A stretch of DNA of 64,000 nucleotides, from NCBI GenBank assembly GCA_016841445.1, contig JAENZD010000002.1:248001-312000 (forward strand), read 5' to 3'. Shown in pieces: positions 2,297-31,303 of the stretch. Numbering within the stretch: position 1 is the stretch's first letter; each line of letters opens with the position of its first letter. Source of the stretch: Anaerolineaceae bacterium. Lineage in GTDB: Bacteria > Chloroflexota > Anaerolineae > Anaerolineales > Anaerolineaceae. The notes beneath the pieces are model-generated. The model saw only the letters and a list, made by a program, of their open reading frames with translations. It ran no database searches and had not been told where the DNA came from. Made by a program: the position numbers and the translations under genes.

Positions 2297-2315
2297 TATA
2301 ATAGTGCACACGTGT
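2297..2315 (+). promoter_or_regulatory. Promoter -10 and overlapping operator of the LacI-family gene
   Basis: TATAAT at 2297-2302 is followed at once by TGCACACGTGT (2305-2315). The exact reverse complement of these 11 bases, ACACGTGTGCA, overlaps the promoter of the aldehyde dehydrogenase gene at 3428-3438. The core ACACGTGT is palindromic with a central CG, as in LacI-family operators. The expected transcription start lies inside it, so binding would block initiation: autorepression is inferred. No clear -35 box is seen, and the leader before the ATG at 2319 would be only about ten bases. Confidence 0.65.
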
Positions 2316-2318
2316 AAA

Positions 2319-7353: not shown

Positions 7354-7390
7354 AATTAGAAAGTAAGTTTTGGTAGACGACAGGTTAAAT

Positions 7391-9213: not shown

Positions 9214-9525
9214 TCAAGATTAGGAGAAATTATCGATTTTCAAAGAATAAAGGAAAAATATGAGAATAAATTATGATTAATTCTCACCTGAATTCGATCA
9301 TTTATTAAAAACAAACCAGGTCTACAGAAAAAACCACGATGAGACTGCAGGCCTCGCTCAGTAGACTGAAACTCAGGACCCTTTATTAACTTGGAATACC
9401 CGGCTCTGCAGTCTGAGAAAAGGAGAGCTCTATTGATAAATTACTAAAAAAGTAAGATTCGGAAGTTTTTCAACCTATAAATTTGGTGTAAATGAATTTA
9501 CCCCAAAAAAGAAATGGAGAATGAA
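9214..9525 (+). other. Gene-free leader ahead of the importer and inositol genes
   Basis: 312 bases without a credible frame. AGACTGCAGGCC (9342-9353) can pair with GGCTCTGCAGTCT (9402-9414), a 12-bp stem with one bulged T around a 48-base loop that may hold smaller structure. Further down is a separate 26-bp inverted repeat (9482-9507). The interval may hold the end of the transketolase transcript, a promoter for the importer, and a cis-acting RNA element. It matches no riboswitch class I can recognise. Confidence 0.5.
9482..9507. promoter_or_regulatory. 26-bp inverted repeat upstream of the first sugar-binding protein gene
   Basis: TTTGGTGTAAAT (9482-9493), GA, ATTTACCCCAAA (9496-9507). 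The arms are complementary at 11 of 12 positions. It ends 18 bases before the chosen start codon and just before the GGAGA ribosome-binding site. It could be a dimeric repressor operator different from the ACACGTG site, or a hairpin controlling translation. Confidence 0.5.
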
Positions 9526-10683: not shown

Positions 10684-12189
10684 ATGTCTGATATAGAATA
10701 TATCCTCGAAGCAACGAATATTGTCAAGAAATTCCCGGGGGTTGATGCGCTCAAGGGTGTAGATTTGAGGGTTAAAAAAGGAGAAATTCTTGGCCTTGTG
10801 GGTGAAAACGGCGCTGGTAAATCGACTTTGATGAAGTGCATTATTGGAATTCATCCGCCTACTTCAGGGGAGATAAAATTTGATGGTCGCCAGTTAAATA
10901 AGTTCTCAACAAGTGATGCTTTGAGTATGGGCATCTCTTATATTCAACAGGAATTAAGCCCGATCGAATATCGACCTATTATGGAAAACATATGGGTTGG
11001 GAGGGAGCCGAGGAATCGATTTGGCTTGGTTGACCATAAGCAAATGTATGAGGATACAAAAGAGCTTTTATTAAGTATTGGCATGGATGAAGATCCAAAA
11101 ATGCTGGTAAGAGATTTAACGGTAGCCAAACAGCAGATGATTGAGATTGCAAAAGCCGTATCCTATGACGCAAAACTGATCATTATGGATGAACCCACTT
11201 CTGCGCTCAGTGGTAGTGAAATCACCGAATTATTCTCAATTATGAGGAAAATAAAGCAGGAAGGCAAATCGATCATTTATATTTCTCATAAGTTGGATGA
11301 AATTTATACCATTACGGATCGGGTTGTCGTTCTCCGGGATGGTGAATTTATTGGTGCTAAAGCAATTGACGAAATTGATGTTAACCAAATGATCGAAATG
11401 ATGGTTGGCCGTAAGGTTACTGATCTTTTCCCAAAGGTCAAATGTGAAATCTGCGACGTGAAGTTAGAGGTTCAAAATCTCAGCAGCGGGAAAGAATTTC
11501 AGGACGTTTCATTTGATGTCAGAGAAGGAGAAATTCTTGGCATCGCCGGGCTTGTTGGCTCAGGGCGAACAGCCCTGATTGAAACGATCTTTGGGATCAG
11601 AAAAAGAACAGCGGGCCATGTGTTTATTGATGGTCAAGAAGTCAACATTAAATCTCCTGCGGATGCGATTGCGAATGGAATGGCGTTTTTAACAGAGGAT
11701 CGAAGATTAAATGGGATTTTCCCAATGTTATCTGTTAAGACAAATATCATTGTTGCTAACTTGAATAATCTGATCAACAAAACAGGTCTTCTAAACACAA
11801 AATTGGTGAATATGAAGAGCCTTGAATACATTGATGCGATCCAGATTAAAACCCCCAGCCAGGATCAATTGGTTATGAACCTCTCAGGCGGAAACCAACA
11901 AAAAGTGCTGGTTGGAAGATGGCTTATGACAGAGCCTGAGATATTATTTTTAGATGAGCCAACTAGAGGAATCGATGTTGGCACAAAATCTGAGATTCAT
12001 AGGCTCATTTCGCAACTTGCAGGGCAAGGGAAGAGTATTGTTATGGTTTCCTCAGAGCTTCCAGAAATCCTTGGTATGAGTGATCGGGTTGTTGTCTTAT
12101 CTCAAGGAAAATTAACTGGGATTTTAGAGAATAGCGATGAACTGACTCAAGAAATTGTAATGCAGTACGCGACGAATAATATGAGCTAA
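10684..12189 (+). CDS. Sugar ABC importer 1, duplicated ATPase subunit (RbsA/MglA type)
   Basis: 501 residues with two ABC domains in tandem. Domain 1: Walker A GENGAGKST (about residue 40), the degenerate signature LTVAKQQM, and Walker B LIIMDEPTSAL. Domain 2: variant Walker A GLVGSGRTA, signature LSGGNQQKV, and Walker B ILFLDEPTRGIDVG. This pattern is normal for ribose/galactose/inositol importers. It energises the permease encoded ten bases downstream. AGAGG lies ahead of the ATG. It follows the binding-protein gene after a strong hairpin. A second, diverged importer of the same class ends the island (23963-27427). Confidence 0.93.
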   Translation: MSDIEYILEATNIVKKFPGVDALKGVDLRVKKGEILGLVGENGAGKSTLMKCIIGIHPPTSGEIKFDGRQLNKFSTSDALSMGISYIQQELSPIEYRPIMENIWVGREPRNRFGLVDHKQMYEDTKELLLSIGMDEDPKMLVRDLTVAKQQMIEIAKAVSYDAKLIIMDEPTSALSGSEITELFSIMRKIKQEGKSIIYISHKLDEIYTITDRVVVLRDGEFIGAKAIDEIDVNQMIEMMVGRKVTDLFPKVKCEICDVKLEVQNLSSGKEFQDVSFDVREGEILGIAGLVGSGRTALIETIFGIRKRTAGHVFIDGQEVNIKSPADAIANGMAFLTEDRRLNGIFPMLSVKTNIIVANLNNLINKTGLLNTKLVNMKSLEYIDAIQIKTPSQDQLVMNLSGGNQQKVLVGRWLMTEPEILFLDEPTRGIDVGTKSEIHRLISQLAGQGKSIVMVSSELPEILGMSDRVVVLSQGKLTGILENSDELTQEIVMQYATNNMS

Positions 12190-12199
12190 GGAGATTCTT

Positions 12200-13201
12200 A
12201 TGAATTCAAAAAATTCGGAAAAATTAAGTAAGATAAAGCAATTGGTTTCGAAGTATGGGATCGCACTGATTCTAGTTGGTATGGTCATTTTAATGACGAT
12301 CCTAAAGCCTCAATCATTTCCATCAGCAAAGAACATCCTGAATATCTTAAATCAAAGTGCGATTGTTGGAATAATGGCTCTTGGTATGACGATTGTGATT
12401 ATATCGAAAGGCATTGATCTTTCTGTTGGCTCAGTTCTGGCTCTGGCTGGAGTTGTCGCAGCAAGTCTATCCCAAACATCTGCGGCAAGCATCAAGGTTT
12501 TTGAGAGTTTAGGGCAGCAGCCGATTTTCGTTGCAATTCTGGCAGCATTAGCCGTTGGGGCGGCCGCCGGTGCGATAAGCGGCGGATTAATCGCTTTTAC
12601 AGGCATTCCAGCTTTTATATCTACACTGGGTATGATGACGATTGCAAGGGGTATCGTTTTTCTTTACACACAAGGGCAACCCGTCAGTAAATTATCCGAT
12701 GGTATGCTATTCTTTGGCTCGAATGTTTTTGAGGTAATCCCTGTCCCTGTGATTGTTTATGGGATCATGATCATTATCACCGCCATTATTTTAGGCTATA
12801 CGAGATTTGGAAAAAGCGTCTATGCCATTGGCGGTAATATCAATGCTGCTGAAGTATCTGGCATCAAGGTCAAAAGAAATATCGTATTAATTTACATTTT
12901 TGCTGGCGTAACCGCTGCCCTTGCATCTATTTTATTCACGGGCCGTGTCGCAAGCGTTCACCCTGGGTCTGCCACTGGCTATGAACTTACAGTGATTGCA
13001 GCCACAACCATTGGTGGCACAAGTCACTCTGGCGGAATTGGAACAGTGTGGGGCGCTGTGGTCGGCACACTTATTCTTAGCGTCCTGACAAATGGATTCA
13101 CGCTATTAGGTATCGACCCTTATTGGCAGCAGATCGTTCAAGGCATGATCATCGTTGGTGCGGTTGTTCTTGACATGAGAAAGAATGCTAAAAAAGCTTA
13201 A
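12200..13201 (+). CDS. Sugar ABC importer 1, permease (RbsC type)
   Basis: A 333-residue integral membrane protein with about eight to ten hydrophobic segments. Family motifs are visible: GIMALGMTIVIISKGIDLSVGS (near residues 54-75), the helix after GIPAFISTLGMM, and TTIGGTSHSGGIGTVWGAVVGTL. It is the transmembrane channel for the binding protein and ATPase encoded just upstream. AAGGAG precedes the start codon. Length and topology are normal for the BPD_transp_2 family. Confidence 0.92.
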   Translation: MNSKNSEKLSKIKQLVSKYGIALILVGMVILMTILKPQSFPSAKNILNILNQSAIVGIMALGMTIVIISKGIDLSVGSVLALAGVVAASLSQTSAASIKVFESLGQQPIFVAILAALAVGAAAGAISGGLIAFTGIPAFISTLGMMTIARGIVFLYTQGQPVSKLSDGMLFFGSNVFEVIPVPVIVYGIMIIITAIILGYTRFGKSVYAIGGNINAAEVSGIKVKRNIVLIYIFAGVTAALASILFTGRVASVHPGSATGYELTVIAATTIGGTSHSGGIGTVWGAVVGTLILSVLTNGFTLLGIDPYWQQIVQGMIIVGAVVLDMRKNAKKA

Positions 13202-13227: not shown

Positions 13228-14232
13228 ATGAGAAAAATTGGGATAATTGGTTTTGGCAGAATTGGAAGGATACATTTTAATACGGCCCAGAAACTAAAAA
13301 ACGTAGAAATTGTCGCTGTTGCAGATCCTTTTGCTAATAAAATGAAAGACGTTTTTGACCAATATGGTGTTGATCATTATAGCGATGATTTTAATGAAAT
13401 CATAAACAACCCGGAAATCGATACGGTCTTTATCTGCTCACCAACGGATACACACGCAAATATAGCCATAGCATCGGCTAAGGCTGGCAAAGACATTTTC
13501 TGTGAAAAACCAATCGACTTGGATATTAATCGCGTTGAGGAAGTTTTGGCAGAAGTTAATCAAGCAGGCGTTGCTTTCCAGGTTGGTTTCAACAGAAGGT
13601 TTGATCCTAACTTTTTCAAGGCAAAAGAAGCAGTTCTCGCAGGTGATATTGGGGATGTTCAAGTGATAAAAATCACCTCACGTGACCCGGAAGCGCCACC
13701 TCTGAGCTATGTAAAATCATCCGGCGGGATTTTTGTTGATATGACGATCCATGACTTTGATATGGCGAGATTTTTAGCAGGCAGTGAACCTGTTGAGGTC
13801 TTTGCAGTGGGTGATGCCCTGATCAACAAGGATATTAAGCAGTACGATGATATTGACACTGCCATCATAACGATCAAATTTGCAAACGGTGCAATGGCTG
13901 TCATTGATAATTCACGACAGGCAGCCTATGGTTATGACCAACGCGTTGAGGTTTTTGGGAACAAGGGCATGGTTAAGTGTGAGAATAACACCCCGACACA
14001 AACAACTCTCTTTACCAATGATGGGGTCGTATTTGACAAACCGCTCTATTTCTTTTTAGAAAGATACCAAGCCTCATTTGAAGAAGAGCTTGTGCAATTC
14101 TTCAATGCTCTCGAAACAGGTCAGGAAACACCAGTCGTGGGTCAAGATGGTCTTGGTGCGCTCTTGATGGCCATCGCTGCAAAAAAATCACTTAAAGAAA
14201 ACCGACCTGTTTGCATCTCGGAAATCTCATAA
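13228..14232 (+). CDS. iolG: Inositol 2-dehydrogenase (IolG), Gfo/Idh/MocA family
   Basis: 334 residues. The N-terminal Rossmann motif GIIGFGRIGRIH binds NAD+. CEKPIDLD carries the catalytic Lys, and HDFDMARFL contains the Asp/His pair placed as in IolG (D..IHD.D). It oxidises myo-inositol to scyllo-inosose, the first step of inositol breakdown. It follows the importer permease by 27 bases, with AAAGGA before the ATG, and opens the enzyme block. Substrate preference among inositol isomers cannot be read from sequence. Confidence 0.85.
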   Translation: MRKIGIIGFGRIGRIHFNTAQKLKNVEIVAVADPFANKMKDVFDQYGVDHYSDDFNEIINNPEIDTVFICSPTDTHANIAIASAKAGKDIFCEKPIDLDINRVEEVLAEVNQAGVAFQVGFNRRFDPNFFKAKEAVLAGDIGDVQVIKITSRDPEAPPLSYVKSSGGIFVDMTIHDFDMARFLAGSEPVEVFAVGDALINKDIKQYDDIDTAIITIKFANGAMAVIDNSRQAAYGYDQRVEVFGNKGMVKCENNTPTQTTLFTNDGVVFDKPLYFFLERYQASFEEELVQFFNALETGQETPVVGQDGLGALLMAIAAKKSLKENRPVCISEIS

Positions 14233-14285
14233 CAAGATGTCCTATTCGAAATACCTATTCACCTGGGAAATAGGAGAATATTAAA

Positions 14286-15206
14286 TTGGTTAGCGCATTT
14301 AGCAGCTGTCCGGGCTCATGGGGCATTGAGGATTCAAGTAATCCTGAAAATACACCTTGGAAGACCGTCTTGGATCAAATCGGGGCGATTGGTTTCAATG
14401 CATTAGAATTGGGGCCTTATGGCTATCTGCCTTCCGAAGCTGCCATGCTGACCGAAGAATTAAACAAACGAGATCTAAAAATTGTTGCTGGAACATTGTA
14501 TGATGATTTGGTTTCAAAGGAGTCGTTTCATCGTATTGTAAATAAAACCCATGAAATTTGCCGTGTTCTATCGACCGTTCCGACTGCTGCCCCTTTAGTG
14601 AATCAGAAACAGGTTCCCCCATATTATGTGATCATCGACGCAGTCAAACCCGAAAGAGAGACGCTGCCCCGTTTCACAAAAGCGCCAATGGTTTCAGCAG
14701 ACTTGTGGGCACAAATGGTCTCTCACATTAAGGAGATAGCGAAGATCTCCTTAGAAGAGTACGGCGTTCGGTCTGTGATCCATCATCACGCCGGCGGCTA
14801 TATGGATTATATGGATGAAATCGATTTGATTCTCTCCGACATTTCTGCAGATCTTGTAGGCCTTTGTTTTGATACCGGGCATGCATACTACGCCGGCATT
14901 GATCCAGAACAAGGTATCCGAAAATACGCTTCCCGCATCGAATATGTGCATTTTAAAGATATCGATAAATCTGTTTATGATGTTGTCATTCATGAAAACA
15001 TCGGTTTTTATGAAGCTTGTTTTAAGAAGCTCATGTGTCCAATTGGTGAAGGCGTCTTAGATTACGGTTCAATCCGGAAAGCGCTCACCGATATTGAATA
15101 TGATGGTTGGATCACGATCGAGCAGGATAGACATCCAAACGATACAAGCGATGTACAGGCTTGTATTCAAAAGAGTGTGAAGTATCTCAAGGATCTTGGC
15201 TTTTAA
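14286..15206 (+). CDS. IolE-like TIM-barrel protein (inosose dehydratase/isomerase family), paralog 2
   Basis: 306 residues starting with TTG; GGAG lies 10 bases upstream and no ATG fits. Xylose-isomerase-like TIM barrel: CPGSWGIEDSSNPENTPW at the start (as in the IolE family C.I.W), HHHAGGYMDYMDEID, CFDTGHAYYAGIDP, YVHFKDI, PIGEGVLDY and WITIEQDRHP, which supply metal-binding Glu/Asp/His residues. The family dehydrates inososes or interconverts keto-inositols. A closer IolE homolog lies at 18388, so this copy may handle a different inosose or a different step. Confidence 0.75.
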   Translation: MVSAFSSCPGSWGIEDSSNPENTPWKTVLDQIGAIGFNALELGPYGYLPSEAAMLTEELNKRDLKIVAGTLYDDLVSKESFHRIVNKTHEICRVLSTVPTAAPLVNQKQVPPYYVIIDAVKPERETLPRFTKAPMVSADLWAQMVSHIKEIAKISLEEYGVRSVIHHHAGGYMDYMDEIDLILSDISADLVGLCFDTGHAYYAGIDPEQGIRKYASRIEYVHFKDIDKSVYDVVIHENIGFYEACFKKLMCPIGEGVLDYGSIRKALTDIEYDGWITIEQDRHPNDTSDVQACIQKSVKYLKDLGF

Positions 15207-15238
15207 TTTCACCTAATTTATACAAAGGATATTTGATC

Positions 15239-16414
15239 ATGTTTAATGAAGAACAAAGGTTTGAGAAGCCGATCAGGTGGGCAATGGTAGGGGGAGGGCG
15301 TGGAAGTCAAATTGGCTCCATTCACCGCGCGTCTGCCTTGCGCGATGGTTTATTTCAGCTTGTGGCTGGCGCTTTTGATATTAATCCTGAACGCGGCAAG
15401 GAATTTGGCACAAACCTGGGCGTTGACCCACACAGATGCTATGCGGATTATCAGGAAATGTTTGCAGAAGAATCTAAATGTGAAGATGGCATCCAGGCCG
15501 TTTCGATTGCTACACCCAATAAATTTCATTACGAGATAGCAAAAGCAGCGCTCTTATCAGGCTTGCACATCGTTTGTGAGAAGCCGCTTTGTTTTAAATC
15601 AAGCGAAGCTGAAGAACTAAAGACCATTGCCGAACAAAACAATTTGGTGATTGGTGTGACCTATGGTTACACGGGCTTCCCAATGGTACATCAGGCGCAA
15701 GAAATGATCAAAAATGGGGACTTGGGTGAAATTAGAATTATTAATACACAATTCGCCCATGGTTTTCATTCTGAAGAAGTCGAAAAGAACGATCCTGGCA
15801 CAAAATGGCGTGTGTCTCCGGAAGTTGCTGGTCCGACTTATGTCCTGGGGGATATTGGAACCCATGCATATTATTTGGCTGAATTGATGATTCCTGATCT
15901 CGAGATCAAGTCGCTTCTTTGCACTCGCCAGAGTTTTGTTGCCAGTCGTGCGCCCCTTGAAGACAATGCCACAGTGTTGATGAACTTTACAAACAATGCT
16001 GTAGGTACCTTGTGGTGCAGCGCGGTTAATGCCGGTGCTATGCACCAGCAGAAAATCCGCATCATTGGCGAAAAGGCCAGCATCGAATGGTGGGATGAGC
16101 ATCCAAATCAGCTCAAGTACGAAATTCAGGGTAAACCGGCCCAGGTACTCGATCGTGGCATGGGCTATCTGCACAATGAAAACCTTGCTGTTGCCGCTAA
16201 CCGTATCGGCGGAGGACACGCAGAAGGCTTGTTTGAATCTTGGGCAAACCTTTATCATCGCTTTGGTTTAGCTATGAATGCAAAAATTGTTGGCGATGAA
16301 TCTTTAGCAGAAAATCTTTGGTTCCCGGGAATTGATGCTGGGATCAGCGGCGTAAAATTCCTGGAAAAATGTGTTGAATCAGCGGACAACGGCAGCATTT
16401 GGGTCGATTATTAG
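15239..16414 (+). CDS. Gfo/Idh/MocA-family oxidoreductase, second dehydrogenase of the inositol cluster
   Basis: 391 residues from the ATG at 15239 (AAAGGA just upstream; a longer frame from 15161 overlaps the previous gene). Rossmann motif VGGGRGSQIGSIHRA, CEKPL with the catalytic Lys, and DIGTHAYYLAE with the Asp/His pair. The GGGRGSQIG form marks a subfamily distinct from IolG. Plausible roles are oxidation of scyllo- or chiro-inositol, or of an inositol conjugate, so that several isomers enter the same pathway. A specific substrate cannot be assigned. Confidence 0.8.
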   Translation: MFNEEQRFEKPIRWAMVGGGRGSQIGSIHRASALRDGLFQLVAGAFDINPERGKEFGTNLGVDPHRCYADYQEMFAEESKCEDGIQAVSIATPNKFHYEIAKAALLSGLHIVCEKPLCFKSSEAEELKTIAEQNNLVIGVTYGYTGFPMVHQAQEMIKNGDLGEIRIINTQFAHGFHSEEVEKNDPGTKWRVSPEVAGPTYVLGDIGTHAYYLAELMIPDLEIKSLLCTRQSFVASRAPLEDNATVLMNFTNNAVGTLWCSAVNAGAMHQQKIRIIGEKASIEWWDEHPNQLKYEIQGKPAQVLDRGMGYLHNENLAVAANRIGGGHAEGLFESWANLYHRFGLAMNAKIVGDESLAENLWFPGIDAGISGVKFLEKCVESADNGSIWVDY

Positions 16415-16497
16415 TAGGATTGCGACAATAATCTGCACGATCCAGCGGTGGTGCAAAACCCGATTTACAGAAGGTAAGTGTAGAGAAAGAGGAGATC

Positions 16498-18360
16498 ATG
16501 AAAGTTAAAAAGTTGACAATGGCGCAAGCGCTCATTGAATTTTTGATTAACCAGTATATCGAAGTGGATGGGACGGAGAAAAAGTTCGTGAAGGGGGTTA
16601 TGGGCATTTTTGGGCATGGCAATGTTGTTGGTTTGGGCCAGGCCTTGGAGCAGTACAAGGATGAAATAAGGTTTTATCAGGGCAAAAATGAGCAGGAAAT
16701 TGCACACGCCGCTATTGCATACAGCAAACAGAAAGACCGGCAAGAAATCTTTGCCTGCACAGCGTCCATTGGGCCAGGTTCCCTCAATATGGTGACAGCG
16801 GCAGGCACAGCGACTGTGAACAGGATTCCAGTTTTGCTATTGCCGTCCGATTCCTTCGCTTGCCGCCAGCCAGATCCGGTATTGCAGCAAATTGAAGATC
16901 CAACAGATTACACGATTACGGCAAATGATGCCTTTAAACCCATCAGCAAATATTGGGATCGGGTATCCAGGCCTGAGCAGTTGATGACGGCCATGATCAA
17001 TGCATTTCGTGTGTTGACGGATCCGGCGAACGCAGGTGCGGTCACTGTCTGCATTCCCCAAGATGTTCAGGGCGAAGCCTATGAGTATCCAGTAGAATTT
17101 TTAGAAAAGCGTGTATGGCACCTGGAAAGACGGCCGATTTCAGATCAGGCAGCGCAAAGAGCAGTTGAGCTCATCAAAAGCAAGAAAAAACCGCTCCTCA
17201 TTTGCGGTGGCGGTGCCAGGTACAGCCAGGCAGAAGAAGAACTTGTGGCCTTTGCCGAAAAGTTTAACATCCCCTTTGCTGAGACACAAGCCGGTAAAGG
17301 GATCATTCCTTTTGATCATCCGCTGAACCTGGGGGCGGGAGGCGTTTGCGGCACATATTCAGCAAATATCATTGCAAAAGAAAGCGACCTTATTATCGCG
17401 GTCGGCACCCGGTTAAACGACTTTGTTACATCGTCAAAAACAGCCTACACAAACGAAGATGTTGACATCCTTTCGATTAATGTTGCCCCGATGGATGCGC
17501 ATAAGATGAACAGCATTGCCCTGGTGGGAGATGCAAAATCTGTGCTCAGCACACTAACTGAGCGATTGAGCGAATCTGGATACCAGAGTGGTTACGGCGA
17601 TGAAATCAAAATGGCCAAAGGGCACTGGGCAGAAGTCATGCAGGATCTAGGTGAAATCGAACTCGAGGAAGGTTTATCGCAAACCAGGGTCCTAATTGAA
17701 TTAAACAAGATCCTGGAGGATGACGATATCATCCTTTCCGCATCAGGCAGTTTGCCATCAGACCTTGAAAGGGTCTGGCAGACGAAAGTTCGCGGCACAT
17801 ACCACCTTGAATATGGGTTTTCTTGTATGGGCTATGAAGTCCCCGGTGCATTGGGGGTTAAGATGGCAGAGCCTCAACGAGAGGTCTATGCCTTCGTAGG
17901 CGATGGCGGTTTCCTTATGTCGCATGCCGAACTTTATACCAGCATCCAGGAAGGTCAAAAGATCAACATTTTGCTTTTTGACAACCATGGACATCAGTGC
18001 ATCCATAATCTGCAAAGATCCCAGGGCATCGATACATTTGGCACCGTGTTCAGGCATCGAGAAGCCAGAACGGGTGGGCTCACGGGTCAATATGCCCCCA
18101 TTGATTTTGCAAGCCTTGCAAAAAGCTATGGTGCAAAAGTTTATCAAGTTGAAACCTTAGAACAATTAAAAGCAGCCGTTGAGCAATCCAAGAAGGATCA
18201 AGTCTCGACACTGATTGATATAAAAGTATTGCCAGGCACCATGACCGATGGCTATGAGAGTTTTTGGCGAGTGGGCACAGCGCAGGTCGCAAAGGACCCC
18301 AGGGTTTCACAAGCAGCCGAATCGATGCGTGAGTCTGTTAAAAAAGCAAAATCATTCTAA
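16498..18360 (+). CDS. iolD: 3D-(3,5/4)-trihydroxycyclohexane-1,2-dione hydrolase (IolD)
   Basis: A 620-residue ThDP enzyme. It starts with LTMAQALIEFLINQYIEVDG and continues GIFGHGNVVGLGQAL, ASIGPGSLNMVTAA, CRQPDPVLQQIEDP, and the ThDP motif GDGGFLMSHAELYTSIQEG...DNHGHQC, all typical of IolD. It opens the six-membered ring of the diketo-inositol to give 5-deoxy-D-glucuronate. This is the committing step specific to the classical inositol pathway and the strongest evidence for the island's substrate. AGAGGAG precedes the ATG; the following iolE is 28 bases away. Confidence 0.95.
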   Translation: MKVKKLTMAQALIEFLINQYIEVDGTEKKFVKGVMGIFGHGNVVGLGQALEQYKDEIRFYQGKNEQEIAHAAIAYSKQKDRQEIFACTASIGPGSLNMVTAAGTATVNRIPVLLLPSDSFACRQPDPVLQQIEDPTDYTITANDAFKPISKYWDRVSRPEQLMTAMINAFRVLTDPANAGAVTVCIPQDVQGEAYEYPVEFLEKRVWHLERRPISDQAAQRAVELIKSKKKPLLICGGGARYSQAEEELVAFAEKFNIPFAETQAGKGIIPFDHPLNLGAGGVCGTYSANIIAKESDLIIAVGTRLNDFVTSSKTAYTNEDVDILSINVAPMDAHKMNSIALVGDAKSVLSTLTERLSESGYQSGYGDEIKMAKGHWAEVMQDLGEIELEEGLSQTRVLIELNKILEDDDIILSASGSLPSDLERVWQTKVRGTYHLEYGFSCMGYEVPGALGVKMAEPQREVYAFVGDGGFLMSHAELYTSIQEGQKINILLFDNHGHQCIHNLQRSQGIDTFGTVFRHREARTGGLTGQYAPIDFASLAKSYGAKVYQVETLEQLKAAVEQSKKDQVSTLIDIKVLPGTMTDGYESFWRVGTAQVAKDPRVSQAAESMRESVKKAKSF

Positions 18361-18387
18361 ATCAAAATTTAAGGAGAGCAAAGCATT

Positions 18388-19287
18388 ATGTTAGATAGCC
18401 GTAAAGTCAAGCTGGGATGTGCACCGATCAATTGGACCAATGACGATCTGCCTTCACTGGGTGGAGAACTGACCTACCAGCAGTGCCTGAGTGAAATGGC
18501 ATTGGCAGGATATAAAGGCAGTGAGATTGGAACGAAGTACCCAAAGGATAAGGATGTATTGAAAAAGGCGTTGGATTTGCGAGGTTTGCAAATCTGTAAT
18601 GGTTGGTTCAGTAGCTTTTTTACCTCTGATAAACCGATCGATTATACATTGGATTTATTTGAGAAACATGCGGATTTTACATACTTTCTCGGTGCCCGGG
18701 TCATCGGCATTGGCGAATGCGGGGTGACCATTCATGGCGACGAGAGTTGCCCGCTGAGTAAAGCGCCCGTTCTTTCCGATGCGCAGTTTGAAAAATTAGC
18801 ACAAGGCCTCAATGAAATTGCCAAACTGGCCAAGGCCAAGGGCATGAAAACCGCTTTTCACTATCACATCGGCACAGGCGTGCAAACCATGGAAGAAACC
18901 GAAAGGCTCTTGGCCATGACCGACCCAGAGCTGGTTGGCATCGTTTTTGACACAGGCCACTCTACCTTGGCTGGCGATGATCCTGTAAAACTGCTTGAAA
19001 AATACATGGATCGGGTCAACCACATTCACTTTAAAGATTTGCGCAGCGACGTCTATCAACAACTCAAAGAAAATGACTGGAGCTTTTTAACCGGTGTTAA
19101 GGAAGGCCTCTTCACTGTGCCGGGCGATGGCGACATGGTCGATTGGGATGGGATCTTCGCCATTTTAAACAAAAGCAATTACGAGGGTTGGATTGTCGTC
19201 GAAGCAGAGCAGGACCCAGCCAAAGCCGACCCATTGGAATATGCGATCAAAGCCAGGAAGTTTCTTGCGGAAAAAACTGGACTTTAG
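18388..19287 (+). CDS. iolE: Inosose dehydratase IolE
   Basis: 299 residues. The N-terminus KLGCAPINWTNDDLPSLGG closely matches IolE proteins, followed by YKGSEIGTKYPKD, TAFHYHIGTGVQT, VFDTGHSTLAGDDP, HIHFKDLR and PGDGDMVDW, with Glu/Asp/His metal ligands on a TIM barrel. It dehydrates scyllo-inosose to 3D-(3,5/4)-trihydroxycyclohexane-1,2-dione, the IolD substrate. AAGGAGAG lies before the ATG. It is located between iolD and iolB, as in many iol operons. Confidence 0.92.
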   Translation: MLDSRKVKLGCAPINWTNDDLPSLGGELTYQQCLSEMALAGYKGSEIGTKYPKDKDVLKKALDLRGLQICNGWFSSFFTSDKPIDYTLDLFEKHADFTYFLGARVIGIGECGVTIHGDESCPLSKAPVLSDAQFEKLAQGLNEIAKLAKAKGMKTAFHYHIGTGVQTMEETERLLAMTDPELVGIVFDTGHSTLAGDDPVKLLEKYMDRVNHIHFKDLRSDVYQQLKENDWSFLTGVKEGLFTVPGDGDMVDWDGIFAILNKSNYEGWIVVEAEQDPAKADPLEYAIKARKFLAEKTGL

Positions 19288-19305
19288 TCAGAAGGGAATA
19301 CACAT

Positions 19306-20100
19306 ATGATCATTAAGAACAAGGATGGCTTTAAACAAGGCTATAACAGCATCACGGATATGGACGGAAAAGACAAAGATATCATGATGGATTTTGGTAT
19401 CCTCAAGCTGTCCAGTGGTGCAGCTTATTCTGAAAATGCACAAAAAGAGAAAGCTGTTTTGCTGCTCTATGGGGAAGTTGAATTGGCGTGGGACGACCAA
19501 AAAACCGTCATTAAAAGAGGCTCTTATTTAGATGATAACCCCTGGACGCTGAATGTTCCGAGTAGCACCGGCGTGAAAATAACCGGCATCGCAGAAGATT
19601 CTGAATTGGCAATCATGAAAACCACGAACCCGAAACAGTTCGAACCTAAACTCTACACCGACCAGGAGTGTCGCATTGAGCTTCGCGGCCAGGGGCAGAT
19701 GAATGATACCGGGACGAGAATTGTAAAGACCATCATGGATGTATCCATCACCACGGATTCAAAATTCATGTTGGGTGAAGATGTGCATTACCCCGGTAAG
19801 TGGGCTGGCTTCCCCTCCCATTCCCATGACCAACCGGAGATCTATTATTACAAGCTCAGCCCCGAGAACGGTTTTGGCTTGCTCAAGTTGGGGGATGAAG
19901 GCGTTGTTTTAGAACATAACGACACCGTCAAAATATACCCAAACGTGGTTCATCCCCAGGTGGCAGCCCCCGGCTATGCCATGTATTTTCTGTGGGTCAT
20001 TCGCCACCTCGATGGTAACCCCTATGTGACCCCCACATTTGAAGAAGAGCATTTGTGGGTTGAAGCGCCAGATGCTGTTATCTGGCCGGATAAGAAATAA
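19306..20100 (+). CDS. iolB: 5-deoxy-glucuronate isomerase (IolB)
   Basis: A 264-residue double-cupin protein. The C-terminal cupin has the IolB signature FPSHSHDQPEIYYYKL, with His and Glu metal ligands, then ENGFGLLKLGDE, VKIYPNVVHPQVAAPGYAMY and WVIRHLDGNPY. It converts 5-deoxy-D-glucuronate to 2-deoxy-5-keto-D-gluconate (DKG). In the textbook pathway DKG is then phosphorylated by IolC and cleaved by IolJ; neither gene is in this window. It is spaced 18 bases from iolE and 9 bases from the next gene, clearly one operon. Confidence 0.93.
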   Translation: MIIKNKDGFKQGYNSITDMDGKDKDIMMDFGILKLSSGAAYSENAQKEKAVLLLYGEVELAWDDQKTVIKRGSYLDDNPWTLNVPSSTGVKITGIAEDSELAIMKTTNPKQFEPKLYTDQECRIELRGQGQMNDTGTRIVKTIMDVSITTDSKFMLGEDVHYPGKWAGFPSHSHDQPEIYYYKLSPENGFGLLKLGDEGVVLEHNDTVKIYPNVVHPQVAAPGYAMYFLWVIRHLDGNPYVTPTFEEEHLWVEAPDAVIWPDKK

Positions 20101-20109
20101 AGGAGACAG

Positions 20110-20943
20110 ATGATCAAAAAAGCGATCCACGGGAAAACCATATTTAAAAGTAATTTAGCAACGGACATTCGAGTCGCACACGAATGTGGATTTTCAGGCA
20201 TTGAAATCGTTGATTCGAAGCTTTACTCCTATTTAGAGCAGGGCAATTCAACGGATGATCTGAACAAGATCCTTAAGAAATATGACGTTCAACCGGTTTG
20301 TATCAACGATATTTGCCATGTTGAAACCGATGATCCGCATCATCTGGATGAGATCCTGAAGGCCACCGAATACTTATCGAAAGTTGCCAAAGAAATCGGC
20401 TGCCCGACGATTCAGCTTGTCCCGCTGCTGGCCTTGGAAGGCAGGCCGTGGGAAGAGATAGTCTATATCACCGGCCGTAATGTGGGCCAGATCGGTGCGA
20501 TCGGCAAACAATACGGCGTCCGTTTCCAGATGGAACCCGTCGCGTGGTCCCCGATCAATTCCCTCTCCAAATGTCTTGAGATGATTGATGTGGCCGGCGA
20601 AGAAAACGTTGCCATGGTCGTTGATTTCTGGCACCTTTGGGCGGGGGGCGAAACATCGCCCGATGAGGTGGCCAATTTAGATTCGTCGATGATCTACAAC
20701 ATCCATTTTTGCGATGGAAAACGGCAGCCCAGGGATACCCAATGGGATGAAACCATATTACGAGGTTATTATCCTGGTGAGGGTGACATTCCGCTGGCGG
20801 CTTGGGTGGACGCTGTAAAAGCCACTGGCTATGACGGATTTTGGTCTTGCGAACTTGTCAGCGCAAAACACTGGGAAGATGATGTGTTTGAGGTGGCATC
20901 AAAGATGAGCAAGGCCATGGATGCATATATTGGCAGCAATTAA
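20110..20943 (+). CDS. IolI/IolH-like sugar isomerase (xylose-isomerase-like TIM barrel)
   Basis: 277 residues. TIM-barrel features: CGFSGIEIVDSKL, GCPTIQLVPLLALEG, RFQMEPVAW (metal Glu), VVDFWHLW (Asp and His), IHFCDGKRQ, YPGEGDIPL and FWSCELVSAKHW. The layout resembles IolI (inosose isomerase) and IolH more than IolE. A likely role is interconversion of keto-inositols so that isomers such as chiro-inositol reach IolE. AAGGAGA precedes the ATG at 20110. A 185-base regulatory gap separates it from the transaldolase gene. Confidence 0.75.
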   Translation: MIKKAIHGKTIFKSNLATDIRVAHECGFSGIEIVDSKLYSYLEQGNSTDDLNKILKKYDVQPVCINDICHVETDDPHHLDEILKATEYLSKVAKEIGCPTIQLVPLLALEGRPWEEIVYITGRNVGQIGAIGKQYGVRFQMEPVAWSPINSLSKCLEMIDVAGEENVAMVVDFWHLWAGGETSPDEVANLDSSMIYNIHFCDGKRQPRDTQWDETILRGYYPGEGDIPLAAWVDAVKATGYDGFWSCELVSAKHWEDDVFEVASKMSKAMDAYIGSN

Positions 20944-21033
20944 TTTCGCAGTGGAATGGTCGCCGATAAGGGTTGTGGTTAGCGAAAACAGATTACCACA
21001 ACAGTAAATCTATTGCCCGATCAAAAACCACCG

Positions 21034-21073
21034 GGAAATCCACGGTAAAATATTAACACGTGAGTGGATTTCC
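21034..21073. promoter_or_regulatory. 10-bp perfect inverted repeat enclosing an ACACGTG operator-like site
   Basis: GGAAATCCAC (21034-21043) and GTGGATTTCC (21064-21073) are exact reverse complements. The 20-base interval between them contains TAAAAT (21046-21051) and AACACGTGAG (21055-21064), which shares the ACACGTG core with the two LacI-type operators at 2305 and 3428. It lies about 55 bases before the transaldolase start. It may be an operator-promoter giving the transaldolase and dehydrogenase genes their own control, or an attenuating hairpin. Confidence 0.55.
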
Positions 21074-21128
21074 TCTTAAAATGAAAGAATGTAATTGTTG
21101 AAAAAGAAATAAGACCAAGGAGGTTATA

Positions 21129-22211
21129 ATGGCAAGTAAATTTAAAAGCCCGCTTCATCAAATGGTGAGCACCACGCCAACGGATTTGTGGAACGATTCC
21201 TGTTCTATCAAAGAACTGACCTATGCCATAGATCATGGCGCTGTAGGCGCAACATCCAATCCAACCATTGTCTACAATGTCCTCAAGCAGGAACTTGGAT
21301 TATGGGAAGATCGAATTCACCAATTAATCGATCAAAAACCCGATTGGTCTGAGGTAGAAATCACCTGGAAGATATTTGAAGAAATCGGGTTAAAAGGCGC
21401 GGAATTAATGCTGCCCGTTTTTGAGCGTGAAGGTGGCAAAAAAGGCCGGCTGTCGATCCAAACCAACCCGGCCAATTACCGCAATGCTGAAGCAGTTGCA
21501 GAACAGGCTGTGTATTTCAATTCACTTGCGCCCAACATTCAGGTCAAAGCGCCCGTCACCCAGGCCGGCGTCAAAGCCATTGAAGAAGCCACATACCAGG
21601 GCGTCAATATCAACGCTACGGTGTGTTTCACAGTGCCGCAGTCGCTGGCCGTGGCTGATGCTGTTGAGCGCGGGCTCAAACGTCGTGAAGCCGAGGGCAA
21701 ATCCGTTGCCGATATGTCGCCGGTCTGCACCATCATGGTCGGTCGCGTGGATGACTGGCTGAAAGTGGTCGCAAAGAAGGAAGGCATCATCACCACCCCC
21801 GGTTATATAGATTGGGCGGGCGTGGCTGTGATGAAAAAAGCATACGGCATCTACCAGAAGCGCGGCTACCGTACGCGTCTCCTCGCCGCAGCTTACCGCA
21901 ACCATTTACACTGGTCGGAGTTCATCGGCGGCGATGTTGTCCTGACCATCCCGTATAAATGGCAGCTGCTGTTCAATCAATCGGACGTCGAGGTCAAGAA
22001 CCGTATTCAGGATCCCGTGCCGGCTGAAATTGTCGATTCACTGTACGAACAATTTGAAGAATTCCGCAAGGCATACGATGAAGATGGCTTAACCGAAGCT
22101 GAATTTGATACCTACGGCGCTACAGTACGCACATTGCGTGGTTTTATCAATTCCTATCATGAGCTGCAGGGTTTCATCAGAGATTTCATGCTGCCTGATC
22201 CGGATAAATAG
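21129..22211 (+). CDS. Transaldolase-family enzyme, proposed DKG transaldolase
   Basis: A 360-residue transaldolase-fold protein: TDLWNDSCSIKEL (18-30), GAVGATSNPTIVYN (37-50), the Schiff-base Lys140 in NIQVKAPVTQAG, NATVCFTVPQSLA, CTIMVGRVDDWLK, and LLAAAYRNHLHW...IGGDVVLTIP. Transaldolases move a dihydroxyacetone unit from a ketose to an aldose phosphate. The gene occupies the place where iolC and iolJ are expected, directly before an acylating aldehyde dehydrogenase. On DKG plus glyceraldehyde-3-phosphate it would give malonate semialdehyde and fructose-6-phosphate. Family and active-site Lys are visible; the substrate is inferred. An AGGAGG site precedes the ATG. Confidence 0.85.
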   Translation: MASKFKSPLHQMVSTTPTDLWNDSCSIKELTYAIDHGAVGATSNPTIVYNVLKQELGLWEDRIHQLIDQKPDWSEVEITWKIFEEIGLKGAELMLPVFEREGGKKGRLSIQTNPANYRNAEAVAEQAVYFNSLAPNIQVKAPVTQAGVKAIEEATYQGVNINATVCFTVPQSLAVADAVERGLKRREAEGKSVADMSPVCTIMVGRVDDWLKVVAKKEGIITTPGYIDWAGVAVMKKAYGIYQKRGYRTRLLAAAYRNHLHWSEFIGGDVVLTIPYKWQLLFNQSDVEVKNRIQDPVPAEIVDSLYEQFEEFRKAYDEDGLTEAEFDTYGATVRTLRGFINSYHELQGFIRDFMLPDPDK

Positions 22212-22225
22212 GAAGGTTGATTTTT

Positions 22226-23605
22226 ATGTCTGAATACATTGATGGATTATTACAAAAAGCGCGTGCAGCCCAGGAGCAAATTGAATTTTGGTCCCAGGAA
22301 CAGGTCGATATGATGGTTGCGGCCGTCGGGTGGGAAACCTACAAGCGCGCAGACGAAATCGCGCGTCTCGCAATCGATGAAACCAAAATGGGCGTGTATG
22401 AGCACAAACTCCTCAAACATCAGAAAAAAACACTGGGCGTCCTCCGTGATATGCAGGGCGTGAAAACCGTGGGCGTGATCGAGGATGATCCGGCGAAGGG
22501 CTTGATCAAGATCGCCAAACCGATCGGTGTGATTGGTGCGCTGACGCCGGTCACCAACTGCGAGGCTACCCTACCCGCCAAAGCGCTGCCGGCTTTAAAG
22601 GGGCGCAATGCCATCATTTATGCGCCTCATCCCAAAGCCAAGAAGACGGCTATGCTGGTCTGCGAAAGTATGCGTAAAGGTTTGCAGAAAATTGGGGCAC
22701 CGCTGGACCTGATCCAGGTGATTGAAGAACCCTCCATAGAGAAAGCCCAGGAATTAATGGCGGCCGTAGACCTGGTGGTGGCGACGGGCGGCGGCGCCAT
22801 GGTTAAAGCCGCCTATTCCAGCGGCACGCCGGCCTATGGCGTCGGCGCTGGCAATGCGGTGGTCATTGTCGATGAGACAGCCAATTTGGCGGAAGCTGCT
22901 GAGAAGATCTTCCAGGGCAAGACCTTTGATAATGCCACCAGCTGCTCGTCTGAAAACTCGCTGGTGATACAGTCGTCCATTTATGATCAGATGGTCAAAG
23001 AACTGGAAAAGCAGGGTGGATATTTCTGCAGTGATGAGGAACGCGCCAAACTTAAAACCCTAATGTGGCCGGATGGCGTGCACCTTAATGGAGCTATTGT
23101 CGCGCAGCCTGTTGACAAGCTGGCTTCGATGGCCGGGATGAAAATCCCCAAAGGAACCACCTTCCTCATGGTCGAGGGCACGCAAGTCGGCAGGGATGAC
23201 CCGTTCTGCAAGGAAAAGTTATCCCTCGTTCTCACAATTTGGCAGTATGAGCAGTTTGAGGATGCGGTCAAAATGGTGGAAGATATCACAGCCCTCAATG
23301 GCAGCGGCCACTCCTGCGGCATCCATACGTCCAGTGAAGCGCATATCCTCCAGTTAGGTATGCGCGCCAAGGCCAGCCGTATCATGGTCAACCAGGCCCA
23401 CAGCTACGGCAACAGCGGCAACTATAATAATGGTATGCCCTTCACGCTGACACTTGGCTGCGGGACTTGGGGCGGCAATATCACCACCGAAAACATCCAC
23501 TGGAAGCATTATTTCAACACAACCTGGATCTCAAAACCCATCCCGCCGGTCGTGCCGGATGAAGAGGATATTTTTGCTGAGTACTGGCAGAAATTTGGCA
23601 AGTAG
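22226..23605 (+). CDS. CoA-acylating aldehyde dehydrogenase, paralog 2, proposed malonate-semialdehyde dehydrogenase
   Basis: 459 residues from the ATG at 22226 (GGAAGG nine bases upstream; a TTG at 22217 is less likely). EutE/SauS-like acylating dehydrogenase: GVIGALTPVTNCEAT (101-115), ATGGGAMV (186-193), PAYGVGAGNA (202-211), catalytic Cys240 in FDNATSCSSENS, and GCGTWGGN near the end. It has the standard substrate-pocket TN motif, unlike paralog 1. Coupled to the transaldolase gene 14 bases before, it could turn malonate semialdehyde into malonyl-CoA. Classical IolA instead gives acetyl-CoA and CO2. A terminator follows. Confidence 0.85.
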   Translation: MSEYIDGLLQKARAAQEQIEFWSQEQVDMMVAAVGWETYKRADEIARLAIDETKMGVYEHKLLKHQKKTLGVLRDMQGVKTVGVIEDDPAKGLIKIAKPIGVIGALTPVTNCEATLPAKALPALKGRNAIIYAPHPKAKKTAMLVCESMRKGLQKIGAPLDLIQVIEEPSIEKAQELMAAVDLVVATGGGAMVKAAYSSGTPAYGVGAGNAVVIVDETANLAEAAEKIFQGKTFDNATSCSSENSLVIQSSIYDQMVKELEKQGGYFCSDEERAKLKTLMWPDGVHLNGAIVAQPVDKLASMAGMKIPKGTTFLMVEGTQVGRDDPFCKEKLSLVLTIWQYEQFEDAVKMVEDITALNGSGHSCGIHTSSEAHILQLGMRAKASRIMVNQAHSYGNSGNYNNGMPFTLTLGCGTWGGNITTENIHWKHYFNTTWISKPIPPVVPDEEDIFAEYWQKFGK

Positions 23606-23650: not shown

Positions 23651-23962
23651 ATGATTATTAGTTGATAAAAAATAGCAGTGAAGAATATCAGCATGACGAT
23701 CATCGAAAAATATCCAACGCAAAACGTTTTTGCACTGGCAATTCAATCGATTTTTTTGGAACAACCGCCAAGCCTGGCTCAAATTTACTGAAAAAGGTTG
23801 CAGGATCTGTATTTTTCATGGTTGATCATTCCAAAATGATTATGATGTATAATATAAAATCTATATTTGTACGGTGCAAAGTATCACCGGTAATCCTTGA
23901 TCAAGCCATCTTGGATTAATGCTTCAATCATCAGCAATTACAGTAAAAACAACGGAGTTTTC
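23651..23962 (+). promoter_or_regulatory. Gene-free interval with promoter and operator-like palindrome ahead of importer 2
   Basis: No credible gene. TATAAT at 23848-23853 is a likely -10 box; the -35 is unclear (TTGATC at 23822 is 20 bases away). At 23866-23880, TTTGTACGGTGCAAA is a 15-bp palindrome with one mismatched pair, placed just after the expected transcription start. It has the central-CG look of LacI-family sites but differs from ACACGTGT. GGAG at 23954-23957 is the ribosome-binding site for the ATG at 23963. Confidence 0.55.
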
Positions 23963-25474
23963 ATGTCCGAGTTCTTGTTGGAAATGAGAAACATCGATAA
24001 GAGTTTCTTTCAAGTAAAAATTCTAGATGATATCAATTTTGATCTTCTTCCTGGCGAGGTCCATGCGCTGGTAGGGGAAAATGGAGCGGGAAAATCTTCC
24101 CTGATGAAGATATTGATGGGAATCTATAGCCGGGATGCCGGAACGATTTTGTTGGATGGTGAGGAAGTCAACTTTCATACACCGCGAGAAGCTTTGAGTG
24201 CAGGTATCGCCATGATTCCTCAGGAATTAAACCCGATCCTCGATATGCAGGTAGCAGAATACTTATTTATCGGCAGAGAGATTACGCATACAAACATGGG
24301 GCCTGTCAGCATTGTTGATCATAAAGCGCAAATTGAACAGGCGAAGAATTTATTCGAAGATACGGGTGTAGATATCAATCCCAGACACCTGATGCGAAAT
24401 TTAAGTGTGGCTCAGATCCAATTGATCGAGATTATCAAGGCGATTTCTCTGGATTCTAAGGTCATTATTATGGATGAACCGACCTCAGCGATCACATTTA
24501 AAGAGGTCGATACATTATTCGAACAAATCCGTAAATTAAAAACAAAAGGTGTGGGGATTATCTATATCTCCCATAAAATGGAGGAGATTTCAGAAATTGC
24601 TGACCGTATTACAGTCTTGCGAGATGGAAAATGGATCGGCACGGATACCGCCCAGAACTTGAGCAAAGAAAAGATTATCAAGATGATGGTTGGTCGGGAA
24701 ATCAAAGAGGTCTATCCCAAGGTCAAAGTGGAACTCGGTGATGTGGCTTTAGAGGTTCGTGATTTGCTGCTCAAAGATAAATTCCAAAAGATCAGTTTTT
24801 CCCTCCGGAATGGCGAAGTGCTTGGGATCGCAGGCCTTGTTGGCGCAGGACGCAGCGAACTGGTGGAGACGATTTTTGGAATTAGTAAACCGGAATTCGG
24901 TGAGGTGCTGGTGCATGGTAAACCTATTAAAATTCAACATCCAATGGTTGCCATCCGCAACAAGATCGCTTTGATCACAGAAGACCGTAGTGCAACAGGC
25001 CTGAATCTGAAAACAACAGTCGAACACAATATTTCTTTTGTTCAACTCAGTAAGTTGGCCAGGTTTGGCTTCATCAATAATAAATTGGAACGAAAAAAGG
25101 TTGAGCAAATGGTTGGGAAACTGCGAATTAAAGCATTTTCCCTCAAAAGTATGGTCAATTCATTGAGCGGCGGAAATCAACAAAAAGTGGTCCTGGCAAA
25201 GTGGCTCCTTTCAGAACCTGAGATCATTATCATGGATGAACCAACTCGGGGAATTGATGTCGGCGCAAAGCGGGATATTTATCTCCTGATTGGTGAGTTA
25301 GCGAAGGCTGGCAAAGCGGTTCTGATGATATCCTCAGAAATTCCGGAACTGATCGGGCTCTGCGATCGAATTATAACAATGGCTGGAGGACGATTAACGG
25401 GTGAGATTCCGAGAGATCGTTTTTCACAGGAAGAAATTATGCACTATGCATCAAAGTTTGAGGTAAGAGAATGA
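23963..25474 (+). CDS. Sugar ABC importer 2, duplicated ATPase subunit
   Basis: 503 residues from the ATG at 23963, supported by GGAG and by the alignment of SEFLLEMRNIDKSF with other family starts; an in-frame upstream extension lacks a site. Domain 1: GENGAGKSS, LSVAQIQLIEI, IIMDEPTSAI. Domain 2: GLVGAGRSE, LSGGNQQKV, IIMDEPTRGIDVG. Same class as the ATPase at 10684 but clearly diverged, so not a recent duplicate. It overlaps the permease gene by four bases (ATGA). It probably imports another inositol isomer or a related sugar. Confidence 0.92.
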   Translation: MSEFLLEMRNIDKSFFQVKILDDINFDLLPGEVHALVGENGAGKSSLMKILMGIYSRDAGTILLDGEEVNFHTPREALSAGIAMIPQELNPILDMQVAEYLFIGREITHTNMGPVSIVDHKAQIEQAKNLFEDTGVDINPRHLMRNLSVAQIQLIEIIKAISLDSKVIIMDEPTSAITFKEVDTLFEQIRKLKTKGVGIIYISHKMEEISEIADRITVLRDGKWIGTDTAQNLSKEKIIKMMVGREIKEVYPKVKVELGDVALEVRDLLLKDKFQKISFSLRNGEVLGIAGLVGAGRSELVETIFGISKPEFGEVLVHGKPIKIQHPMVAIRNKIALITEDRSATGLNLKTTVEHNISFVQLSKLARFGFINNKLERKKVEQMVGKLRIKAFSLKSMVNSLSGGNQQKVVLAKWLLSEPEIIIMDEPTRGIDVGAKRDIYLLIGELAKAGKAVLMISSEIPELIGLCDRIITMAGGRLTGEIPRDRFSQEEIMHYASKFEVRE

Positions 25475-31278: not shown

Positions 31279-31303
31279 TTTATCCAAACACCCTTATCAT
31301 GTA

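Follow-up and report, generated by a model that had tools for sequence, protein, structure and literature searches.

A 64,000-nucleotide stretch of an Anaerolineaceae bacterium (assembly GCA_016841445.1, contig JAENZD010000002.1, positions 248,001 to 312,000; hereafter the window) carries at 13228-23605 a run of inositol genes that ends with a transaldolase, TAL, and an acylating aldehyde dehydrogenase. The open reading frames, their identities in outline and their order, all on the + strand, are as the original prediction gave them. The run opens with iolG, encoding inositol 2-dehydrogenase (13228..14232; TIGR04380, 455 bits, cut-off 355), and continues with an iolE-like sugar isomerase/dehydratase gene (14286..15206; PF01261; TIGR04379, 155 bits, cut-off 290), a second Gfo/Idh/MocA dehydrogenase gene recognized in NCBIfam and Pfam scans (15239..16414), iolD, encoding the trihydroxycyclohexane-1,2-dione (THcHDO) hydrolase (16498..18360; TIGR04377, 921 bits, cut-off 715), a second iolE, encoding inosose dehydratase (18388..19287; TIGR04379, 396 bits, cut-off 290), a divergent iolB of the KduI/IolB family (19306..20100; PF04962, 162 bits, cut-off 23.9; TIGR04378, 91 bits, cut-off 205) and an iolI-like gene for a TIM-barrel isomerase (20110..20943; PF01261). 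The 360-residue TAL (21129..22211; PF00923, 138 bits, cut-off 27), which we propose acts on 2-deoxy-5-ketogluconate (DKG), is followed by acylating aldehyde dehydrogenase 2 (22217..23605, alternative start 22229; NF047625, 573 bits, cut-off 600). The assignments of iolG, iolD and the second iolE thus exceed their curated cut-offs, whereas the first iolE-like gene and iolB do not.

The window and the host genome (3.35 Mb in 8 contigs, 98.85% complete) were searched with profiles for iolC (TIGR04382), iolA (TIGR01722) and class II aldolases (PF01116), with no model specific to IolJ. None of the three profiles appears among the matches listed for the window, in agreement with the earlier statement that iolC and iolA are missing there. 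The genome-wide search that had been suggested as a check found no intact iolC or iolA over cut-off elsewhere, an outcome that favors the original prediction for these two genes; the top scores were 232/300 bits (score/cut-off, here and below) on contig C3 for iolC and 186/448.5 bits for iolA. Three class II aldolases are encoded in the genome, all outside the window, and none lies within about 10 kb of a match to iolG, iolD, iolE or iolB.

We propose that the cluster takes up an inositol, which IolG, IolE, IolD and the IolB-like isomerase would convert to free DKG. Written as a ketose, HOCH2-CO-CHOH-CHOH-CH2-COO-, DKG has by our own reasoning the C3/C4 configuration that transaldolases use. 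TAL would form a Schiff base at Lys140, freeing malonate semialdehyde from DKG, and would hand the dihydroxyacetone unit to glyceraldehyde-3-phosphate to give fructose-6-phosphate. Dehydrogenase 2 would then convert malonate semialdehyde to malonyl-CoA, and in other TAL genomes IolA would yield acetyl-CoA and CO2 from the same aldehyde. Neither a DKG kinase nor a DKG-phosphate aldolase would be needed. We consider it probable that TAL converts DKG and glyceraldehyde-3-phosphate to malonate semialdehyde and fructose-6-phosphate, with substrates, products, acceptor and direction all predicted from sequence; the step is well supported by comparative genomics through gene content, linkage, mutual exclusion, predicted fold and a conserved lysine. 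The locus points to what may be a kinase-free, undescribed way of splitting an inositol-derived sugar acid.

Co-occurrence was assessed in 201 genomes, the host's own and 200 relatives. A close TAL clade (at least 56% identity; a 91-residue fragment in G096 left out) is present in 27 of them, and IolD (E up to 1e-150) in 40, two of which are under the curated cut-off; the count omits a shorter IolD match that G161 has next to TAL. IolD occurs in 22 of the 27 TAL genomes versus 18 of the 174 others, leaving 5 genomes with TAL only and 156 with neither (Fisher 4e-14, shared descent ignored). The 40 IolD genomes divide into 22 with TAL (one of them also with iolC), 10 with transketolase, type II glyceraldehyde-3-phosphate dehydrogenase (GAPDH-II) and phosphoglycerate kinase (PGK), 5 with iolC only and 3 that fit none of these groups (G037, G138 and G166). 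On a 36-row IolD tree, 5 changes suffice to explain the TAL label, carried by 20 rows, compared with 12.1 after shuffling; for the transketolase label, carried by 8 rows, 1 change is enough. TAL shows no more than a tendency to exclude iolC: the kinase gene scores over its cut-off in 10 of the 201 genomes, among them 1 of the 22 with IolD and TAL versus 5 of the 18 with IolD and no TAL (p 0.07, shared descent ignored).

Close relatives of TAL were fetched with their surroundings in 30 loci, of which 19 show IolD and 16 show IolB; a common order is iolB-TAL-iolD-iolG-iolE-iolG. Relatives of TAL are encoded in at least 578 stretches of a GTDB-based collection, most of them metagenome bins. In the best 80 of these, with many loci clipped by contig ends, iolD or iolN is present in 40 and any iol gene in 49, and TAL and iolD share a strand in 35 of the 37 loci in which both could be placed. 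By BLAST label, which may be wrong for single contigs, an iol gene accompanies TAL in Chloroflexota (26/36), Acidobacteria (3/5), Actinomycetota (4/9), Proteobacteria (6/9), Deltaproteobacteria (1/4), Verrucomicrobia (2/2), Omnitrophota (3/3), Planctomycetota (1/1), Armatimonadota (1/1), an Asgard archaeon (1/1) and unassigned stretches (1/2), and in none of those from Spirochaetota (0/5), Calditrichales (0/1) and Myxococcales (0/1). The survey for which the original prediction had called links the TAL clade to IolD genomes, often with TAL adjoining iolB or iolD; the expected co-occurrence with iol genes held, and the expected absence of iolC did so only in part, the kinase accompanying TAL in some genomes.

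TAL reaches no NCBIfam transaldolase model (113/367 bits at best), and its PF00923 domain, fold and invariant lysine uphold the family and the Lys140 position first assigned to it. Lys140, within a K-x-P motif that aligns to solved transaldolases, is invariant in 25 aligned clade members, as are Asn44, Asp23, Asn162 and Thr164. Also invariant is Met203, at the place of Phe178 in TalB. An AlphaFold model of TAL (predicted local distance difference test, pLDDT, 94.5; predicted template modeling score, pTM, 0.91) has as its top structural match the Neisseria gonorrhoeae transaldolase (Z 38.9, root-mean-square deviation 2.0, 321 aligned residues); BmSF-TAL, a transaldolase of sulfosugar breakdown, matches over a smaller core (Z 21.9, deviation 1.9, 199 aligned).

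The fate of the three-carbon product may be indicated by which dehydrogenase accompanies TAL. Across the 27 TAL genomes, dehydrogenase 2 (at least 60% identity) is found in 16 and IolA over cut-off in 6, with both in none and neither in 5 (hypergeometric 0.0016, shared descent ignored). The same pattern holds inside the fetched TAL loci, with dehydrogenase 2 in 9 genomes (the host's included), IolA in 4 and both in none, and in the best 80 database loci, with an IolA-like gene (at least 40% identity) in 18, dehydrogenase 2 in 5 and again both in none. G053 and G155 have IolA immediately next to TAL. Where IolD occurs without TAL, none of 8 genomes checked has dehydrogenase 2 above 37% identity. 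Among solved structures, dehydrogenase 2 is closest to an acetylating succinate-semialdehyde dehydrogenase (377 bits). The linkage of TAL with IolD, its adjacency to iolB or iolD and the exclusion between dehydrogenase 2 and IolA all favor the idea that TAL would act on DKG. In a separate locus (L253), TAL is paired with IolA (559/448.5 bits) with no iol genes.

Several observations weigh against this route. IolB passes the Pfam KduI/IolB model and falls under its curated cut-off, so that formation of DKG is itself a prediction. An iolC gene lies directly after TAL in G174, within the TAL region of a Clavibacter plasmid and, as an iolC-like gene (at least 35% identity), in 6 of the best 80 database loci; because of these cases, TAL does not always replace the kinase. 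No iol neighbor is present in 31 of those 80 loci, many of which are clipped. Of the 16 genomes with dehydrogenase 2, 7 encode it away from the fetched TAL locus, and in both off-locus regions scanned (L292 and L291) it adjoins a class III aminotransferase gene. Two further observations, the placement of the window IolD and a glutamine in the TAL active site, each bear on an alternative and are taken up below. In G174, a relative with 48% identity to dehydrogenase 2 is encoded three genes away from a PhnW transaminase. The family fits action on short aldehydes bearing an acidic group, and the off-locus context would also allow it another role. Because so many dehydrogenase 2 genes are away from TAL, we give conversion of malonate semialdehyde to malonyl-CoA somewhat better than even chances and regard it as less certain than the TAL step. 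The acylating, SauS-like dehydrogenase named in the original prediction does stand beside TAL; its malonyl-CoA product is deduced from context.

The alternative that survives best is that a transketolase, not TAL, is the principal enzyme splitting DKG in the window organism. The same-strand run, as read from the window's reading frames and profile scans, already begins near 2304, upstream of the inositol genes, with a transketolase module that the first description left unmentioned. It comprises a LacI-family regulator (2304..3350; RbsR-like, under cut-offs), acylating aldehyde dehydrogenase 1 (3530..4942; SauS-like; NF047625, 475 bits, cut-off 600), which is 48% identical to dehydrogenase 2, a CoA-transferase of succinate/acetate type (4971..6452; NF053853, 489 bits, cut-off 500; TIGR03458, 487 bits, cut-off 658.7), an enzyme resembling 3-hydroxy-3-methylglutaryl-CoA (HMG-CoA) lyase (6439..7353; NF004283, 273 bits, cut-off 246) and a split transketolase, whose N-terminal subunit (7370..8248) and C-terminal subunit (8245..9213) match the corresponding halves of NF004559 with 256 and 216 bits. 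All are on the + strand and share the run with the inositol genes. The transketolase would convert DKG and glyceraldehyde-3-phosphate to xylulose-5-phosphate and (R)-malate semialdehyde, which dehydrogenase 1 would turn into malyl-CoA; as speculation, the CoA-transferase and the lyase-like enzyme might then yield malate, or acetyl-CoA and glyoxylate. TAL would be a second branch. This alternative gains from the IolD tree, on which the window IolD groups, with 100/100 support and on a long branch, with eight IolD proteins whose genomes lack TAL and contain a linked split transketolase. The window transketolase is nevertheless at most 36% identical to those of that sister group in both subunits and has a long branch, on which grounds we rejected kinship between them. 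The lyase-like gene, the only gene of the module searched for in this way, has no full-length relative above 40% identity in the 201 genomes, short partial matches aside, and conservation of the transketolase/lyase module was rejected as well. Given the low identity of both genes, the module lacks a conserved context. That the module is a second outlet for DKG in the window organism we hold possible but somewhat less likely than not, and that it is the main one a shade more doubtful still.

A further alternative is an aldolase activity of TAL. Gln111, invariant in the 25 aligned members, occupies the position of the classical catalytic Glu, and Gln at this position is a trait of fructose-6-phosphate aldolases; PDB titles among the structural matches include such Gln/Glu swaps. 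Because of this residue, TAL may possibly release free dihydroxyacetone along with malonate semialdehyde, as a DKG aldolase of the fructose-6-phosphate aldolase type. The host genome has two genes for dihydroxyacetone kinase, DhaK, which could fit such a release, but only 8 of the 27 TAL genomes have a DhaK match, and the lack of one in the other 19 favors transfer over release there. TAL also has the fold and length of a full-size transaldolase. We judge the aldolase reading unlikely.

Still less probable is a hidden IolC/IolJ route, in which inositol would be handled by the iolC-like kinase of contig C3 together with one of the three class II aldolases. One aldolase does lie near a weak IolO-like match (28%) and a DhaK gene and scores 413/405 bits with PRK08185, and a second is near an IolM-like gene (27%). 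The kinase (232/300 bits), however, belongs to a cluster (L138 3694-9892, on the host's contig C3) that perhaps serves some other sugar and also encodes a DRL-type oxidoreductase, a split transketolase and a weak Gfo/Idh match; genomes without IolD contain matches of comparable score (222-254 bits). The distance of all class II aldolases from the inositol genes also argues against this route; no search was made for an IolC-fused DUF2090 aldolase. Least probable of all is that TAL is an ordinary pentose-phosphate transaldolase present in the operon by chance: despite its classical fold, TAL misses the NCBIfam transaldolase models, is linked to iol genes across phyla and has a distant clade of about 30% identity without iolD, iolB or iolG, and a housekeeping role was rejected in view of this linkage and of another transaldolase in the host, within a 924-residue open frame at C3:749458, which is a candidate for that role. 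That distant clade (about 27-33% identity; L063-L072) has a transketolase match in 8 of its 10 fetched loci, and its only iol-type match is one iolE-like gene (30%, L067).

The sister group provides a separate view of how DKG might be split. In one genus (g17), ten genomes with IolD lack both a close TAL and an iolC above its cut-off. In all ten, genes for a split transketolase, a PGK paralogue and GAPDH-II (405/185 bits in what was scanned) are linked, as in the example locus L123 6813-18154 (G031). In nine of the ten, these genes share a contig with IolD or IolE, and in G120 the contig breaks off at the gene for GAPDH. PGK and transketolase are separated by four open reading frames in G062. 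Of the 201 genomes, 15 have GAPDH-II: the ten just described, an eleventh from g17 that lacks IolD, and four more. PGK matches number exactly two in each of the ten, with 344-355 bits for the locus copy and 535-552 for the other. The locus GAPDH retains the SCNTT motif. The locus PGK has the motif HQGDT versus HLGRP in the housekeeping copies and HQGKP in the nearest solved PGK, the basic residue of the motif presumably having a functional role. The next gene encodes a LarA-family protein in nine of the ten loci, the tenth meeting a contig end; the one g17 LarA scored has 374 bits against the malate racemase Mar2 and 222 against the next structure (for the LarA family, see PMC11770544).

By our own reasoning, transketolase cleavage of DKG in this group would leave (R)-malate semialdehyde, which is isosteric with D-glyceraldehyde-3-phosphate. 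GAPDH-II would convert it to malyl-phosphate, the PGK paralogue would produce D-malate and ATP, and the racemase would give L-malate. We consider this GAPDH/PGK malate route likely enough to test. No fetched locus of G094, G111 or G117 showed an IolB match, which weakens the DKG premise for those genomes. More broadly, DKG may be a carboxylate mimic of xylulose-5-phosphate that is split by a TAL branch and a transketolase branch, the latter in the sister group being a carboxylate copy of lower glycolysis, and the window organism would have both; we regard this picture as evenly balanced. As part of it, both splitting enzymes are encoded in the window organism, with acyl-CoA chemistry proposed after each. 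Two loci outside the group hold some of the same genes. L171 3327-10035 (G106), from a genome without IolD, brings together IolN-like, IolO-like and IolB-like (37%) genes, GAPDH-II and the PGK paralogue. L167 9778-14594 (G061) has GAPDH-II, PGK, LarA and then a malic enzyme (375 bits, against 1178 for the full-length model), with no iol genes; its LarA scores 386 bits against Mar2 and 212 against the next structure. Desguin et al. (PMC7583248) treat a malic enzyme in the vicinity as a pointer to malate racemase.

The proposed route shares its first half with the classical inositol pathway, represented by Bacillus subtilis IolG-E-D-B-C-J-A and by IolC-DUF2090 fusions. IolG, IolE, IolD and an IolB-family protein are common to both, and malonate semialdehyde is the three-carbon product of the classical pathway and the predicted one here. 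IolJ and IolC-DUF2090 are DKG-phosphate aldolases according to Price et al. (PMC9007349). The window, in contrast, has no IolC or IolA over cut-off, and unphosphorylated DKG would be cleaved by a transaldolase, with a SauS-like acylating dehydrogenase next to it. The closest known logic is that of the sulfo-TAL and sulfo-TK pathways (PMC9594981). In the former, a transaldolase (SqvA/BmSF-TAL) acts on an unphosphorylated acidic ketose and passes dihydroxyacetone to glyceraldehyde-3-phosphate, as we suggest for the window; the predicted substrate here, however, is a keto acid, and TAL has 360 residues and iol neighbors, whereas BmSF-TAL chains have 218-226 residues. In the latter, a transketolase (SqwGH) acts on an unphosphorylated acidic ketose, much as we suggest for the sister group and for the window's upstream module; those would differ in a carboxylate substrate, a predicted malate semialdehyde product and, in the sister group, GAPDH-II and PGK. 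Dehydrogenase 2 resembles SauS, the acylating sulfoacetaldehyde dehydrogenase (NF047625), and would likewise make a CoA product from an aldehyde with an acidic group; unlike SauS it is under the cut-off, and its context predicts malonate semialdehyde. A 2022 survey (PMC9430895) defined inositol clusters by at least three of iolB, iolC, iolD and iolE, and the word 'transaldolase' does not occur in it. Within open-licence PubMed Central literature, represented mostly by titles and the beginnings of abstracts, we found no inositol or DKG route by transaldolase or transketolase. A plasmid-borne TAL relative is annotated merely as 'transaldolase family protein'.

Inositol and phytate are abundant plant compounds. 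If the route is correct, surveys based on iolB, iolC, iolD and iolE, as in PMC9430895, can misjudge which organisms degrade inositol and what they make from it, the products being malonyl-CoA, or malate and ATP, in place of acetyl-CoA. The transaldolase and transketolase logic known from sulfoglycolysis would then cover carboxylate sugars as well, and a widespread TAL clade would acquire a function. Relatives of TAL are found in the named strains Pelolinea submarina and Levilinea saccharolytica, which makes the proposal directly testable.

An inositol route through IolN, IolM and IolO has been described in Thermotoga. Three TAL loci (L035, L036 and L053; genomes G061, G030 and G053) join IolN-, IolM- and IolO-like genes to the same TAL clade, with scores in G061 of 542/245 bits for IolN, 164/450 for IolM-like and 205/300 for IolO-like. 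The window differs in using IolD, and the TAL loci are proposed to cleave the keto acid and not to reduce it. In G061 and G030 the next gene belongs to the tartronate-semialdehyde-reductase family (357/340.75 bits in G030; the G061 copy is 78% identical), and tartronate semialdehyde is the aldehyde expected where CHOH-COO replaces CH2-COO. By our own reasoning, D-tagaturonate, were it the substrate in the IolN-type loci, would lack the C4 configuration normally used by a transaldolase. A glycerate kinase after dehydrogenase 2 in the G061 locus was ruled out, the frame encoding a phosphotransferase system (PTS) IIC-like protein. Separately, an Actinomycetota locus (L213 9917-12368) has TAL beside a gene of the tagaturonate-epimerase (UxaE) family, which may bear on the stereochemistry of the IolN-type loci.

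Other partners of TAL were seen in single or paired loci. In L044 and L055 (G053 and G040), TAL is joined to genes for an aldehyde ferredoxin oxidoreductase and a protein with a fucose-isomerase C domain. Proteins of 548 and 423 residues, directly after TAL in L202 11110-12756 and L216 11110-12381, had no hit in Pfam or NCBIfam at the thresholds applied, and an inositol-monophosphatase-family gene holds that position in L220 1410-2282 and L259 11106-11906. In the window, the inositol genes are flanked on both sides by sugar ATP-binding cassette (ABC) transporter genes on the + strand. Upstream are a substrate-binding protein (9514..10518) and an ATPase (10684..12189), both from profile scans, and a probable permease (12200..13201) recognized by its reading frame and place beside the ATPase; downstream are a probable ATPase (23897..25474) and a probable permease (25471..26436), each from the reading frame only, and a substrate-binding protein (26501..27427) found by profile scan. 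Farther along, on the - strand at 29848-32515, two adjacent, near-alike genes encode, judging by their translations, apparent thioredoxin/DsbA-like domains fused to cyclophilin.

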